Positions 30,845 to 39,251 of a DNA stretch of 64,000 nt are shown here, piece by piece; positions within the stretch are counted from its first letter, which is position 1; every line of letters starts with the position of its first letter. The DNA is taken from assembly GCF_019008365.1 (NCBI RefSeq), contig NZ_JAHHUL010000013.1:1-64000 (forward strand), written 5' to 3'. The DNA is from Phosphitispora fastidiosa. GTDB lineage: Bacteria > Bacillota > Thermincolia > Thermincolales > UBA2595. Both the position numbers and the translations under genes were made by a program. The notes beneath the pieces were generated by a model. That model searched no databases. It was not told the DNA's origin and saw nothing but the letters and a program-made list of their open reading frames with translations.

Positions 30845-31522
30845 CTATTTTACGGTCTTTTCCTTCAAGTTGTTATTTACCCACTCAGTCAACCATTCAG
30901 TCCATTGGTCCATACCCTGCCCGGTACGAGCCGAAACCTCAAAAATCTTTATCCCGGGGTTAATTATTTGGATATCCTGACGCAGCGCTTGGAGGTCTAC
31001 ATCAGTAAATTCCAATATATCCATCTTATTCAGGATAACCGCCGCTGACTCCCGGAAAAGCAGGGGATATTTCATCGGCTTGTCATCTCCCTCGGTAATA
31101 CTGAGGACTGCAATTTTGAGGTCTTCACCAAGGTCAAATTCAACGGGGCATACCAGGTTTCCCACATTTTCGACAATCATCAGATCAAGCCCGGGTAAGT
31201 CAAACTTATTGAGCGCCCCTGATACCATTTTAGCATCGAGATGGCAGGCCCCGCCGGTATTTATCTGTTCCACAGGAACCCCGTGTTTTTCAATTCTTTT
31301 GGCATCCTTACTGGTATAAATGTCTCCTTCAATCACTGCCAGCCTGACCTTTCCGGCCAGAATATCTATTGTTTTTTCCAAAACCGTTGTCTTTCCGGAA
31401 CCTGGGGAACCCATTATATTTATCGCAAAAACGCCGCTTTTCCTAAACAAGCTCCGGTTCACCAGCGCTTTTTGCTCATTTGCGCTGAGGATACCGGTAT
31501 TTACTTTAATCTCCAACTCCAT
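30845..31522 (-). CDS. hypB: hydrogenase nickel-incorporation GTPase HypB
   Basis: 225 residues: G1 GSPGSGKTTVLEK, the metal-switch GGACHLDAKM, ENVGNLVCP and NKMDILEFT. No N-terminal His-rich or CxxCGC nickel-storage segment. Delivers nickel with HypA to [NiFe] enzymes. ATG at 31522 has GGAGG only three bases upstream; a TTG at 31516 has nine-base spacing and may be the real start. Overlaps the 3' end of hypA. Its position downstream of a large-subunit gene that lacks nickel ligands is odd. Confidence 0.95.
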   Translation of the reverse strand: MELEIKVNTGILSANEQKALVNRSLFRKSGVFAINIMGSPGSGKTTVLEKTIDILAGKVRLAVIEGDIYTSKDAKRIEKHGVPVEQINTGGACHLDAKMVSGALNKFDLPGLDLMIVENVGNLVCPVEFDLGEDLKIAVLSITEGDDKPMKYPLLFRESAAVILNKMDILEFTDVDLQALRQDIQIINPGIKIFEVSARTGQGMDQWTEWLTEWVNNNLKEKTVK

Positions 31523-31859
31523 CCACCTCCAGGCTTTCCACGTACAATTCCCGACCGGAAACCACTTCCATGCCAAGGGATGAGCAGCCGGGACACATAA
31601 AAATGTGTTTTTCTGTTTTGCCTTCCCATCCGCAGCCCCGGCATCTCGCTATCAGAGGCACCTCCTTGATGACCAGTTCGGCGCCCTCAACCGAAGTTCC
31701 TTTGGCATATACTTCAAAGGCCGCTTCCAGGGCCTCAGGCACTGCATTGGTCATTTCCCCGACAACTAAGGTCACCCTAGTGACGTTTTTTTCCGGCAAG
31801 TCTTCCGTATTCTCCCTGATTATTTCAAATACACCTGCCATTAAGGCCATTTCGTGCAA
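31506..31859 (-). CDS. hypA: hydrogenase nickel chaperone HypA
   Basis: 117 residues. The N-terminal MHEM supplies the nickel-binding His2; the zinc site is CRGCG and CPGC near residues 74-93. Starts at a TTG with GGGGGG six bases upstream, 18 bases after the cytochrome b gene. Works with HypB on hydrogenase or urease nickel insertion. Confidence 0.95.
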   Translation of the reverse strand: MHEMALMAGVFEIIRENTEDLPEKNVTRVTLVVGEMTNAVPEALEAAFEVYAKGTSVEGAELVIKEVPLIARCRGCGWEGKTEKHIFMCPGCSSLGMEVVSGRELYVESLEVDGVGD

Positions 31860-31877: not shown

Positions 31878-32516
31878 CTAAAACACCTCAGGTTCTTCAC
31901 CTTCAAATTCCCCAGCTACCGGCTGCATATATATTCCTTCCGGCAGATACCCCGTAATCATGGACTTTATGACCGTCCATCCACCTATAATGGAAAGGTA
32001 AACATGAAGAGCAACGGTTAGGATAAATACCCAAGTAACGGCAAAATGAACCTGCCTGACAACCACCGGTCCCCCCAGGGCTCTAACATATGCTGCCAAC
32101 CCCTCAGTAAAGTAGAGTCCGAACCCTGTAATGGCCTGTACCAGAACCAAGACTGCCCAGGCATTGTAAAGCAGCTTTTGGCCTGCATTATATTTTCCTG
32201 CTACGGGAGGCTCTTTACTTAAAAAAAGATAATACCTGAACAAGGACGGGAAGCCCCTAATATCCCGCAGCCGGAACATTAATTCACGGTAATCCTTGCT
32301 TACCCATGAATAGTATATTCTTATCAAGATGCCATAAATAATAAGATACATGGCAATAAAATGTGTTTTTCGGGCAATATCCATGTTGGCAAAAAGCGCA
32401 AAAAGCTCCGGATCCCTTATATACATGCCCGATGTGGTTAGCAGGCCTATATTTGCAGCATTTATCCAGTGCAGTATACGGGCTGGCATGGTATGACAAT
32501 ATATTTCGGTTGCCAA
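31878..32516 (-). CDS. [NiFe]-hydrogenase-type cytochrome b subunit
   Basis: 212 residues with four membrane helices and conserved heme ligands: His in ARILHWIN, His in KTHFIAMY, and two in VHFAVTW and ALHVYLSI. This HyaC/FdnI-like cytochrome passes electrons between the small subunit and the quinone pool. The TTG at 32516 follows AGGAGAGGTG. Lies 24 bases downstream of the large-subunit gene. Confidence 0.9.
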   Translation of the reverse strand: MATEIYCHTMPARILHWINAANIGLLTTSGMYIRDPELFALFANMDIARKTHFIAMYLIIYGILIRIYYSWVSKDYRELMFRLRDIRGFPSLFRYYLFLSKEPPVAGKYNAGQKLLYNAWAVLVLVQAITGFGLYFTEGLAAYVRALGGPVVVRQVHFAVTWVFILTVALHVYLSIIGGWTVIKSMITGYLPEGIYMQPVAGEFEGEEPEVF

Positions 32517-32540: not shown

Positions 32541-33896
32541 TTAAAATGACCGGGCAACCCGAAACACCTCTATAGGGTTTTCCGGATTAACCACTGTTAG
32601 CCCGATAAGGGCCTGCTCCAGTGGACCCATGCTATTATCGGCCGTTCGCGGACAGAGATTCCATGAAAATGAGTCCATGGCATTATATGCTTCAATCTTA
32701 CCGTCACTTAATGAAACGTAATGAATAACCGAACCCTGGGAAGCCTCCGCGGCACCTACTCCCTGACCCGCTTCCGGCATCTCAGCCTCTACAGTCAGCG
32801 GTCCATCCGGTTCATATTCATCTATCCAGGCAGATATTTTGGTCACCAACGCCTTAGTCTCCTCAAGACGGGCCTTAAAACGCCCCATAACGGAAAAAGC
32901 GCTCGCCCCCATGGATGTGATGACAGGGTTTCCTGATAACAGCATTCGCGCAGGAGCCCCTACCTCACAGGTCTTCTTATCATATAAAGCACCCTTCACC
33001 CAGGAATATCCTCCCTGTTTATCAGGCGAAACCCGAAACGGTCCTGCCAGGGAACTGCTCCCTGAGCCTGCTGTCTCAAACCAGGACCCGGCACAATCCA
33101 CAGTTATTAAATCAGTATCCAGCAGCTGATTTCCTGAAATACCAGTTCTCACTGAACCAGAGATCATGTATTCCCCCAGCCCGTTTCCCGGAAATTCACT
33201 TACCGTTAACAGGCGTCCTTCTCCCTTACCCATATTATACCAATCAGGATACGCTTTTTCCAGGTCTCCCAGATCAACGGTATAATTGTTGTTTATGAAC
33301 CTGCCGACCTCCCCAAGAATCGATCTTAGCTTGAGTAAGTCTGCTATATTTAAATTCCGGGTAATCCCACCGAAAACAACATTGCAGATGTGGGGCGCTT
33401 TTCCTGCCACGATACCCGTCATGGTATGAATCAGACTGCGAATCTCAAGTGCCTTCCAAACATTAACCGCAATTCTGTCTGCAGCAGCAGATAAGAGCCG
33501 ATAGTCCCTGTCCCGCAGATGCTCCGCAGCACCTGACCTTAGAGGCACATAGTCAGGCACGGCGTTTTGGTAAAAGTGTGCCAAATTACCGTAAATCATA
33601 TCCAGCGCCAGCAGGATATTTCTAACCAACCGGGCGTTTGGAGGAACCGAGACCCCGGCTATACCCTCTAAAGCTCTGACTGCAGCAACGGCATGTGAAA
33701 TAAAGTCTATTCCGCTGCACCGTTGTGTCAACTGGACAGCATCCAGAGGGTCTTTGCCCTTAAGCGTCTTTTCAAAATCCCAATAATATGTGGTCCCTGT
33801 TTTTGCAGATATTACCTTGCCAACATCTGTTTCTAATTCTAGTCTTATAGGCCTTATGCCCCTGTTCAGAGGATGAATAACCAGTAATTCCGCCAT
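32541..33896 (-). CDS. [NiFe]-hydrogenase large-subunit homologue lacking the nickel site
   Basis: 451 residues, clearly of the group-1 large-subunit family: ALEGIAGVSVPPNARLVRN, GNLAHFYQ, SWNLCPR, GPLEQALIG and NPENPIEV all align. The active site is gone. The RxCGxCxxxH motif reads RCSGIDFISH (residues 59-68), so Ser61 and Asp64 stand for the two Cys. RIEGH near the start is replaced by LNRGI. The active-site Arg loop EAPRG reads EASQG. The protein ends at VARSF, exactly before where DPCxxCxxH should start. The frame is otherwise uninterrupted and the ATG overlaps the small-subunit stop by one base. I infer a maintained, non-hydrogenase role; recent inactivation is less likely. Confidence 0.9.
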   Translation of the reverse strand: MAELLVIHPLNRGIRPIRLELETDVGKVISAKTGTTYYWDFEKTLKGKDPLDAVQLTQRCSGIDFISHAVAAVRALEGIAGVSVPPNARLVRNILLALDMIYGNLAHFYQNAVPDYVPLRSGAAEHLRDRDYRLLSAAADRIAVNVWKALEIRSLIHTMTGIVAGKAPHICNVVFGGITRNLNIADLLKLRSILGEVGRFINNNYTVDLGDLEKAYPDWYNMGKGEGRLLTVSEFPGNGLGEYMISGSVRTGISGNQLLDTDLITVDCAGSWFETAGSGSSSLAGPFRVSPDKQGGYSWVKGALYDKKTCEVGAPARMLLSGNPVITSMGASAFSVMGRFKARLEETKALVTKISAWIDEYEPDGPLTVEAEMPEAGQGVGAAEASQGSVIHYVSLSDGKIEAYNAMDSFSWNLCPRTADNSMGPLEQALIGLTVVNPENPIEVFRVARSF

Positions 33897-34957
33897 TATT
33901 TATCATCCCCCCGGCTGTTCTTTTTGCCAATTCGCCCGGAAAAGTAGTTTCCAGCTAAATGAACCGCAAACCCTGCAGCCGTAACCGCACCTGCCGTGAT
34001 ACCGATGGCATCGGCAGTTGATGTAATTCCTGGTCCCTTTATTTCGGGCATTCGTTTATAGAAAGGCATAGTCAAATCAGGGAAACTGGGGTCAGTACAT
34101 CCGATACAGGGAGCATTTGCATTGACACACCATGATGATGCCCCGTTCCACAGCCTGGTAGGACAATCACCATGAGCCAGTGGGCCCTTACAGCCAATCT
34201 GCAGTAAACATCCTTCTTCACCGTACTTCCTGGCAAAGATACTGTTGTCAAAATACTGCCTTCTGGGACAATTATTATGTATCAGGCCTTGGAAAAATGT
34301 TTTGGGCCTGCCATAATCATCAAGCTCCGGCCTGCCAAACAGCAGCAGATGAGCAAGGGTTCCTACTATCCAATCCGGATGAGGCGGGCAGCCGGGAATA
34401 TTAATAACCTTGCTCACCTCTATAAGTTTTTCCAATCCCACACATTCCGCATCATTGGGCTCCGCAGCAGAAATCCCTCCAAAGGAGGCACACGAACCAA
34501 CGGCAACTGTGGTCTCGGCAAGTTCCCCCAGTTTCTCCAGCAGCTCTATAAGGGTAACCTTTTTCCCCCGGGAGTCTTGCCCGATAATATGGAAGTTTCC
34601 ATGATCAGCTGTTGGAATAGCCCCTTCCACAACCAGGATGAACTTTCCGCTGTTTTTTTGGGCTGTGTCCACAAGATAATCTGGAAGGAACCTAACAGTT
34701 TCCGCCGCCAGCCCCGGGTGATATGAAATATTTATAATTTCATCAAGTACTTCCTTTATATTGGGATGAACCGAATTCATCAGGGAAGACGAACATCCGT
34801 TACAGGCAGAACCCTGAATCCAAAGCACAGGTGGACTGCCCTGAACCGTTTTTTGAAACGCCTCTCCAATTGCCGGAACCCACACCTGGGAAATCCCGAG
34901 GGCTGTAACAGATGCTGTACATAGTTTTATAAATTGTCTGCGGCTAAAGCGTTTCAT
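33896..34957 (-). CDS. [NiFe]-hydrogenase small subunit, Tat-exported
   Basis: 353 residues. Twin-arginine signal RRQFIK at 6-11. Proximal cluster motif SACNGC (Cys52, Cys55), VGSCASFGG and IPGCPPHP; medial/distal motifs HNNCPRR, GCLLQIGCKG and the CPTRLW-CVNANAPCIGC set. A C-terminal membrane helix (about 320-340) anchors it. All three Fe-S clusters look preserved, unlike the nickel site of the partner. GGAGG is six bases before the ATG. First gene of the operon with large subunit, cytochrome b, hypA and hypB. Confidence 0.94.
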   Translation of the reverse strand: MKRFSRRQFIKLCTASVTALGISQVWVPAIGEAFQKTVQGSPPVLWIQGSACNGCSSSLMNSVHPNIKEVLDEIINISYHPGLAAETVRFLPDYLVDTAQKNSGKFILVVEGAIPTADHGNFHIIGQDSRGKKVTLIELLEKLGELAETTVAVGSCASFGGISAAEPNDAECVGLEKLIEVSKVINIPGCPPHPDWIVGTLAHLLLFGRPELDDYGRPKTFFQGLIHNNCPRRQYFDNSIFARKYGEEGCLLQIGCKGPLAHGDCPTRLWNGASSWCVNANAPCIGCTDPSFPDLTMPFYKRMPEIKGPGITSTADAIGITAGAVTAAGFAVHLAGNYFSGRIGKKNSRGDDK

Positions 34958-35070: not shown

Positions 35071-35137
35071 TCTCGGATAATTACTTTTTAAAATCTCGGA
35101 TAATTGCTTTTAATTTTCCCGGATTACTACTTTCTGG
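35071..35137. repeat. 23-bp tandem repeat between the hydrogenase-like operon and yyaC
   Basis: TCTCGGATAATTACTTTTTAA-type unit at 35071-35093, again at 35094-35116, and a degenerate third copy beginning TCCCGGATTACTAC at 35117. Lies between divergent genes and directly upstream of the yyaC ribosome-binding site, so it could be an operator array. Confidence 0.7.
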
Positions 35138-37675: not shown

Positions 37676-38503
37676 ATGGCAAATATCCTTTTCCAAAGCT
37701 TGCAGGAACAATTGCTGCATATGGGGGCAGTACTAGTTGCCTTTTCAGGGGGAGTAGACAGCACACTGGTGCTCAAAGCAGCTATAGCAGCGCTGGGGAA
37801 CAGTAATGTCCTTGCTGTTACGGCGGCTTCAGAAATCTATCCTGCAGCTGAAACGGAAAACGCCCGGAAAACAGCGCAGTTTATCGGCGCCAGACACCTT
37901 GTCATTACAACAGAAGAAATGAACAGCAAATTATTTGTCAGCAATCCCCCAAATCGCTGTTATCACTGCAAAACCGCTCTTTTCCAGCGGCTGAAGGGAC
38001 TTGCCGTTGAACATGGTCTCAATTATGTTGTTGACGGTTCAAATGCTGATGATACCACTGACTACCGTCCCGGGACCAGGGCTGCCAAGGAACTTAGTGT
38101 CAGGAGCCCGCTTCAGGAGGCCGGATTTTCAAAAGCTGACATCAGGCAGGTGTGTCGGGACCTTGGTCTGCCCAACTGGGATAAACCGGGGATGCCTTGT
38201 CTTTGCACGAGAATCCCTTATGGACAGGCAATTACAAGTGAAAAGCTGAGGCAGATAGACCAGGCAGAGACATTTATAAGATCCTTAGGGATTAAAGATT
38301 TGAGGGTCAGGCACCATGGCAGCCTGGCTAGGATAGAAGTGCCGTTACACCTTGTCAATAAAATCCTCTTAGAACAAGTGCGCTCAGAAATCCTTAAAGA
38401 GCTTGAGGCTATTGGTTTTAATTATATTTCCCTTGATTTGAAAGGCTTGAGAAGCGGTAGTTTTAATGAGACTCTTTCAGAGGAGATTCGATATGGACAG
38501 TAG
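37676..38503 (+). CDS. larE: sacrificial sulfur transferase LarE
   Basis: 275 residues. PP-loop SGGVDSTL near residue 20; RCYHCKTALF and PCLCTRIPYG, the latter holding the conserved sulfur-donating Cys region. In some LarE proteins several Cys hold an Fe-S cluster instead of one sacrificial Cys; the CxC here may indicate that, which is inference. Adds sulfur to the nickel-pincer nucleotide of lactate racemase-type enzymes. GGAGG 12 bases before the ATG. Confidence 0.93.
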   Translation: MANILFQSLQEQLLHMGAVLVAFSGGVDSTLVLKAAIAALGNSNVLAVTAASEIYPAAETENARKTAQFIGARHLVITTEEMNSKLFVSNPPNRCYHCKTALFQRLKGLAVEHGLNYVVDGSNADDTTDYRPGTRAAKELSVRSPLQEAGFSKADIRQVCRDLGLPNWDKPGMPCLCTRIPYGQAITSEKLRQIDQAETFIRSLGIKDLRVRHHGSLARIEVPLHLVNKILLEQVRSEILKELEAIGFNYISLDLKGLRSGSFNETLSEEIRYGQ

Positions 38504-39251
38504 TTCTTTACGCGACCTGCTTGACCGGCTGAAAAACGGCCAGATAGATACTGATACCGCCCTGGAAAGACTTAAAACGCTTCCTTTCGAAGACATTGGT
38601 TATGCCAAGCTTGACCACCATCGAAGCCTGCGGACCGGCTTTCCTGAAGTCATCTTCTGTGAGGGCAAGACAAGTTTGCAGGTTTCTCAAATTTTCACAA
38701 AACTCGCCAACTGTAACAGCAATGTTCTGGCAACAAGGGCATCCAGAGATGTTTATACTGCCGTAAGCACGGCTTGTCCCAAAGCCCAATATCACGAACT
38801 CGCCCGTTGCATCACCATTGAAAAAGAGACAGTGCAAAAATACATGAGCCCTGTCCTGGTGATGAGCGCAGGCACTGCCGACCTTCCGGCGGCGGAGGAG
38901 GCAGCTGTTACTGCAGAAATAATGGGAGGGAATGTTACCAGGCTTTATGATGTCGGAGTAGCCGGAATTCATCGTCTCTTCAGTCATCATGAGCTAATCA
39001 TGAAAGCCTCTGTAATAATAGTGACAGCTGGAATGGAAGGCGCACTAGCCAGTGTGGTTGCCGGGTTTGTGGATGTACCCGTAATTGCCGTCCCTACCAG
39101 TGTAGGTTATGGAGCCAGTTTTGGAGGCCTAGCAGCGCTTTTGGCTATGCTTAATTCCTGCGCCTCGGGAATTGCGGTTGTTAATATAGATAACGGTTTC
39201 GGAGCTGCTGCGATGGCTATTTCAATTATACGTCTTGCCGAAAAGAATTAA
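38493..39251 (+). CDS. larB: nickel-pincer cofactor carboxylase/hydrolase LarB
   Basis: 252 residues from ATG 38493 with GAGGAG seven bases upstream, overlapping larE by 11 bases. LDHHRSLRTGFPEVIFCEGKT and a PurE-like C-terminal domain (TAGTADLPAAEEA, GMEGALASVVAG). Carboxylates nicotinic acid adenine dinucleotide in the first step to the nickel pincer cofactor. larC, the nickel-inserting enzyme, is not in this window. Confidence 0.93.
   Translation: MDSSSLRDLLDRLKNGQIDTDTALERLKTLPFEDIGYAKLDHHRSLRTGFPEVIFCEGKTSLQVSQIFTKLANCNSNVLATRASRDVYTAVSTACPKAQYHELARCITIEKETVQKYMSPVLVMSAGTADLPAAEEAAVTAEIMGGNVTRLYDVGVAGIHRLFSHHELIMKASVIIVTAGMEGALASVVAGFVDVPVIAVPTSVGYGASFGGLAALLAMLNSCASGIAVVNIDNGFGAAAMAISIIRLAEKN

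Follow-up and report, generated by a model that had tools for sequence, protein, structure and literature searches.

A group 1 [NiFe]-hydrogenase-like large subunit without nickel-iron ligands in a putative electron-transfer complex of the Thermincola order

Introduction

Can a hydrogenase large subunit that has lost every ligand to its nickel-iron site remain a working part of a complex, or is it the remnant of an enzyme in decay? The question is raised by one gene of the window, the whole 64,000-nucleotide stretch of Phosphitispora fastidiosa DNA that was analyzed. An earlier note, made from the sequence alone, had proposed a conserved non-hydrogenase subunit beside an intact small subunit and cytochrome b. 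That proposal is now well supported, as the homologs in sister genomes also lack the motifs in question and dN/dS is far below 1. The reading favored here, at slightly better than even confidence, is an electron-transfer complex of group 1 origin, located outside the cell and linked to menaquinone, that carries Fe-S clusters and hemes, does not handle H2, and has a new partner at the emptied site; this partner is inferred and has not been demonstrated.

Operon structure and profile matches

The gene lies at 32541-33896, as the earlier note had placed it, and is read from the minus strand; the plus strand across the same interval contains many stops. It stands second in a minus-strand operon encoding a small subunit, the large subunit, a b-type cytochrome, HypA, and HypB:

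33896..34957, minus strand: small subunit, with a Tat signal, 12 Fe-S ligands, and a C-terminal anchor
33896 to 32541, minus strand: ligandless [NiFe]-hydrogenase-like large subunit, 451 aa, ATG start, TAA stop
31878..32516, minus strand: b-type cytochrome (Ni_hydr_CYTB), with conserved His 8, 16, 52, 157, and 171
31506..31859, minus strand: hypA, the sole HypA gene detected in the genome, separable from the complex
30845..31576, minus strand: hypB, whose product is the genome's sole HypB above the curated cut-off; separable from the complex

The small-subunit stop and large-subunit start share one nucleotide (TAATG), an overlap present, with ATG or GTG, at seven of the eight family loci. The large subunit matches Pfam PF00374 at 236 bits and the NCBIfam model NiFeSe_hydrog at 317.7 bits, far below the cut-off of 600, while matches to NuoD models are marginal (20-28 bits); its best profile and fold matches are to NiFeSe/group 1 proteins. 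No antiporter-like gene occurs in the operon, and the membrane partner is the cytochrome b.

The neighboring gene at 35104..35748 matches the spore protein YyaC, which ruled it out as a hydrogenase maturation protease. RNA folding at the junction between the large subunit and cytochrome b genes was unremarkable (z -0.74). A few kilobases from the operon, on the opposite strand, the window also encodes LarE and LarB of nickel-pincer cofactor synthesis (37676-39251, plus strand), with conserved synteny; a LarC-like gene adjoins LarE/LarB in genomes G004, G005, and G009, with none adjoining in the window.

Loss of the nickel-iron site

Alignment with intact paralogs showed that the large subunit lacks all four Cys ligands of the NiFe site, the catalytic Glu, and the catalytic Arg. 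The affected positions are as follows:

33849..33872, minus strand: degenerate P-V-T-R-I-E-G-H region (P9-P16, PLNRGIRP), with I14 at the catalytic Glu position
33777..33782, minus strand: W39-D40 in place of an R-G pair present in 48/48 of the intact large subunits
33693..33722, minus strand: degenerate L1 motif R59-C60-S61-G62-I63-D64-F65-I66-S67-H68, with the Cys pair replaced by S61 and D64
32733..32747, minus strand: E384-A-S-Q-G388, with Q387 at the catalytic Arg position
32541..32552, minus strand: R449-S-F451-stop, the end of the protein exactly before DPCxxCxxH

The group 1 L1 motif RxCGxC is thus absent, with S61/D64 in its place, and the L2 motif DPCxxCxxH is absent from all family members, each having a stop codon directly before it. 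These losses are not attributable to chance, because C61, C64, R387, and both Cys of DPCxxC are invariant in all 48 intact large subunits compared. Most of what the earlier note had read from the single sequence was borne out by the alignment, namely the replacement of the L1 Cys pair by Ser61/Asp64, the Gln at position 387 where EAPRG has its Arg, and the end of the protein at RVARSF-TAA immediately before the DPCxxCxxH position. Its reading of the RIEGH motif held only in part: the Glu is gone, but in the aligned register T-R-I-E-G-H faces N11-R12-G13-I14-R15-P16, and the motif's Arg is retained as R12. The protein is not filed here as a hydrogenase, as the defining ligands were tested for and are absent.

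An active hydrogenase could still be hidden here if the missing Cys were supplied by a separate peptide, as in VhuU, or by recoding, and split subunits of the VhuU type do exist. This explanation is hardly credible, as the L1 Cys are lost as well, the stop codons of the orthologs vary among TAA, TAG, and TGA, and no DPC occurs downstream. No separate DPCxxCxxH peptide restoring the site was found in a whole-genome motif search, which returned only the three intact large subunits and one unstudied match elsewhere. Rescue of L2 by a split or selenocysteine-type arrangement was rejected: apart from the one unstudied match, no candidate for a rescuing peptide was found, and no DPC comes after the stop. 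The unstudied DPCxxCxxH-encoding match lies outside the known large subunits, at G000:C1:22525-22551 on the minus strand.

Orthologs, synteny, and origin

Two genomes of the genus carry orthologs with 86 and 78% identity, and five more genomes in the family carry orthologs with 46-54% identity; none of these proteins has either Cys pair or the catalytic Arg, and R-S-F is the C terminus in every case. The earlier note would have been contradicted by sister-strain homologs carrying full CxxC and DPCxxC motifs; the close homologs that were found are instead without them. In G009, from a second family of the order, an ortholog with 34% identity also lacks the ligands and ends in R-A-F-E. In total, nine genomes of the Thermincola order, eight from the family and one from its sister family, carry the ligandless form, all at one syntenic locus. 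A scan of the whole GTDB collection, restricted to two conserved peptide patterns, returned seven loci, corresponding to seven family genomes. Of 123 distinct large subunits checked for motifs, 113 were intact, nine were the ligandless orthologs, and one was a fragment. A search for further ligandless large subunits among matches in 398 genomes of the phylum retrieved 60 additional matches, all of them motif-intact.

In an unrooted tree of 57 sequences, the nine ligandless proteins formed one side of a branch with support of 100/99, with G009 on a long branch. Four derived residues, W39, P118, W147, and D408, are common to all nine, and W39 replaces the Arg found in every one of the 48 intact enzymes. 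Both in the family and in G009, the operon lies between yyaC and a CvpA-type gene with an aminopeptidase gene, although other genes stand in place of hypAB and cvpA at the G005 locus. Because these flanks are common to the family and G009, the locus must be older than the split of the two families. As inferred from these sequence comparisons, the gene is of single origin and has been vertically inherited across the Thermincola order. All eight family proteins have the same last residue, although the stop codon may be TAA, TAG, or TGA and the 3′ sequence varies, and this constancy indicates that the terminus itself is under selection.

Selection and residue constraint

Within the genus, large-subunit dN/dS, calculated pairwise by the Nei-Gojobori method, was 0.199, 0.127, and 0.110; the small subunit had values of 0.06-0.11 and an intact large-subunit paralog values of 0.09-0.12. 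By this estimate, the ligandless large subunit is under purifying selection. A dN/dS near 1 would have spoken against the earlier note; the range obtained was 0.11-0.20, compared with 0.09-0.12 for the intact paralog, and these values, together with open frames in nine genomes, agree with its argument against recent decay. That the gene is a decaying hydrogenase, or the product of a sequencing error, is accordingly very improbable: nonsynonymous change is faster than in the intact paralog, as decay would have it, but the open frames, a dN/dS far below 1, the identical terminus, and the deep single origin are all at odds with such an explanation.

In the closest pair of genomes, dN was 0.070 for the large subunit versus 0.038 for the small subunit, so that the large subunit evolves faster; the intact paralog pair shows the reverse, with a slower large subunit (dN 0.043 versus 0.055). 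The faster change would fit a loss of catalytic constraint with retention of structure. The intact enzymes have 80 near-invariant columns; all eight family members retain 38 of these and all eight lack 22, the lost columns including the four Cys, the Arg, R39-G40, and the entire L2 motif. At a further 25 positions, among them D64-F65, W39-D40, and C415, the eight family members share a residue that intact enzymes seldom have, and this pattern suggests a new constraint.

The large subunit may therefore be only an inert scaffold that supports folding, Tat export, and stability of the small subunit and cytochrome b, with the partner docking on the small subunit. This possibility counts against the favored reading, and its grounds are the faster evolution of the large subunit, the retention of just 38 of the 80 near-invariant columns across the family, and the absence of any new ligand-like residue set conserved in all nine proteins. 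It is nonetheless considered the less likely of the two, a minority view still to be taken seriously, as the 25 family-invariant residues suggest that a new constraint has been gained and the large subunit invariably accompanies the other two genes.

Small subunit and cytochrome b

The small subunit and cytochrome b had been described as intact, and the Fe-S ligands and His residues are indeed all present. The Fe-S ligands of the small subunit are C52, C55, C156, and C190; H227, C230, C250, and C256; and C265, C277, C284, and C287. All 12 are found in seven family small subunits and in that of G009, with four Cys each at the proximal and medial clusters. [NiFeSe] enzymes typically have a fourth Cys at the medial cluster. 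The small subunits also retain their Tat signal and C-terminal anchor. Five His residues of cytochrome b are conserved in all eight clade members aligned, and two of these are mostly absent from the cytochromes of intact operons.

Small subunits of the C12-type paralogs of the order differ at these clusters, with Pro at the position of the fourth medial Cys. Two small subunits of intact C12-type hydrogenases, at L050:6314-7501 and L055:6788-8086, have Asp or Asn for one proximal Cys (CTGD and CSGN). A second, truncated small subunit of 244 aa is encoded in G009 between the ligandless large subunit and cytochrome b (L046:11105-11839, plus strand) and keeps only the Cys of the proximal cluster, like NuoB.

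Separation from nickel maturation

The hypA and hypB genes presumably serve the intact hydrogenases of the genome, because they are its sole HypA gene and its sole HypB gene above the curated cut-off. In G004, a member of the family, the locus reads yyaC-hypA-hypB-cvpA-aminopeptidase, with exactly the small subunit, large subunit, and cytochrome b missing, and in G005, another member, the three genes of the complex are present while hypAB are absent from the locus. Taken together, these patterns mean that the complex and hypAB are separable in both directions, and the linkage to hypAB, which had been considered as a sign of nickel dependence, was rejected as such after this comparison. No HypA, HypB, HypD, or HypF exceeded the cut-off anywhere in the G005 genome, which is listed as 100% complete. 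The complex thus appears to persist where the known route cannot make the NiFe cofactor, which points to independence from the Hyp system, although this is a genomic inference only. One caveat is that G005 also encodes a large subunit with intact NiFe motifs (L053:5031-6443, G005:C40), which is unexplained without Hyp proteins.

Predicted structure and the emptied pocket

The AlphaFold2 model of the large subunit, built from 57 sequences, had a pLDDT of 92.3 and a pTM of 0.93, and its best Foldseek matches in the PDB were [NiFeSe] large subunits, with TM scores of 0.94-0.95 by query length. Since the input alignment consisted mostly of intact hydrogenases (48), retention of the fold is not an independent result; the model is compatible with a [NiFeSe] large-subunit fold without proving it. 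Removal of the tail, which usually occupies the site, and replacement of the ligands suggest an open pocket beside the proximal cluster, an inference for which there are no cavity data.

The pocket could instead bind a different metal or cofactor through D64, Ser or Asn at position 61, and H68, as all eight family members have D64 and H68, with S or N at position 61. Little weight is given to this idea, because the sister-family protein has Leu for D64, and H68, like R59, is invariant in intact enzymes too and hence not specific. The same failure of the sister family to keep D64, a pocket residue, also counts against the favored electron-transfer complex with a partner at this site.

Proposed function

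A new electron-transfer complex remains the best inference for the three genes, with no direct evidence for it; no substrate, partner, or activity is known, and both the absence of H2 handling and the redox function are inferred. The ancestor of the three-subunit complex would be a group 1 ([NiFeSe]-like) hydrogenase exported by Tat and anchored in the membrane. In canonical hydrogenases, the large subunit is retained until it has received its nickel and its C-terminal extension has been cut. Neither nickel insertion nor C-terminal processing would be needed for the small and large subunits described here to assemble, as the large subunit is synthesized with its end already at the processing region. 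It could join the small subunit without delay and be exported with it by way of the small-subunit Tat signal, so that the complex would sit outside the membrane. Electrons would then pass between menaquinone and the proximal [4Fe-4S] cluster, with the cytochrome b hemes, the distal cluster, and the medial cluster as intermediates. At the emptied pocket by the proximal cluster, a quinone, flavin, humic shuttle, or redox protein may replace H2, in the manner of quinone at NuoD/NuoB of complex I.

An alternative role for the complex, as a sensor or regulator of redox state and not as an oxidoreductase that conserves energy, was considered in view of G009, where a gene for a 731-aa protein with Fe-hydrogenase and sigma-54 activator domains overlaps the start of the operon. 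This role is improbable, since the family genomes have no such gene adjoining the locus, and a membrane cytochrome b with a full Fe-S chain is better suited to electron flow. The G009 protein (L046:6191-8386, plus strand) combines 4Fe-4S, Fe-only hydrogenase C-terminal, sigma-54 activator, and Fis-type HTH domains and is possibly a redox-sensing regulator.

Viewed more broadly, the electron-transfer complex might represent a new class of extracellular respiratory complex, in which a group 1 hydrogenase independently repeated the step taken by complex I, with the NiFe pocket becoming a quinone-like or shuttle site by the proximal cluster, possibly tied to extracellular electron transfer, a process known from Thermincola. 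This wider proposal is speculative and remains a minority possibility. The extracellular pathway described for T. ferriacetica comprises the multiheme proteins ImdcA, PdcA, CwcA, and OcwA, with ImdcA proposed as the oxidizer of the quinone pool (PMC7911101), and no link between that pathway and the present complex has been shown.

Comparison with known systems

Hydrogenase relatives without the ligands are already known. HydDB lists Nuo and Ehr as hydrogenase homologs that do not metabolize H2 (PMC5037454), NuoD and FpoD have lost L1 and L2 (PMC7886697), and Ehr proteins, which fall within group 4, lack the Cys in CPR bacteria (PMC7304191). By HydDB and these papers, such non-H2 relatives (Nuo, Fpo, and Ehr) belong to the group 4/complex I side. 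No description of a ligandless group 1 large subunit was found in the literature searched, which mostly excluded subscription journals, and this is not proof of novelty. If true, a conserved case from group 1, as part of an exported Fe-S/heme complex, would represent an independent step from hydrogenase to another oxidoreductase, and the three-gene complex makes such a step testable. Homology-based annotation, whether by PF00374 or by the domain-plus-similarity check of HydDB (PMC5037454), can miscount genes of this kind as H2-uptake hydrogenases.

The closest known systems are the group 1 [NiFeSe] and [NiFe] hydrogenases, including those of Desulfomicrobium baculatum (4kl8/1cc1) and D. vulgaris Hildenborough (3ze7), with which the large subunit shares its predicted fold (TM 0.94-0.95). 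These likewise have a small subunit with full Fe-S ligands and a Tat signal, and a cytochrome b in the operon, but the present protein is without the four NiFe ligands, the catalytic Glu and Arg, and the C-terminal DPCxxCxxH. NuoD and FpoD of complex I belong to a different branch of the superfamily, and unlike them the present protein is part of a putatively Tat-exported complex with three clusters and a cytochrome b and with no antiporter-like subunits in the operon. The likeness to Nuo, Fpo, and Ehr is that NiFe ligands have been lost in a conserved and selected protein; those systems represent the group 4/complex I branch, whereas its profile, its fold match, its small subunit, and its cytochrome partner all place the present complex with group 1.
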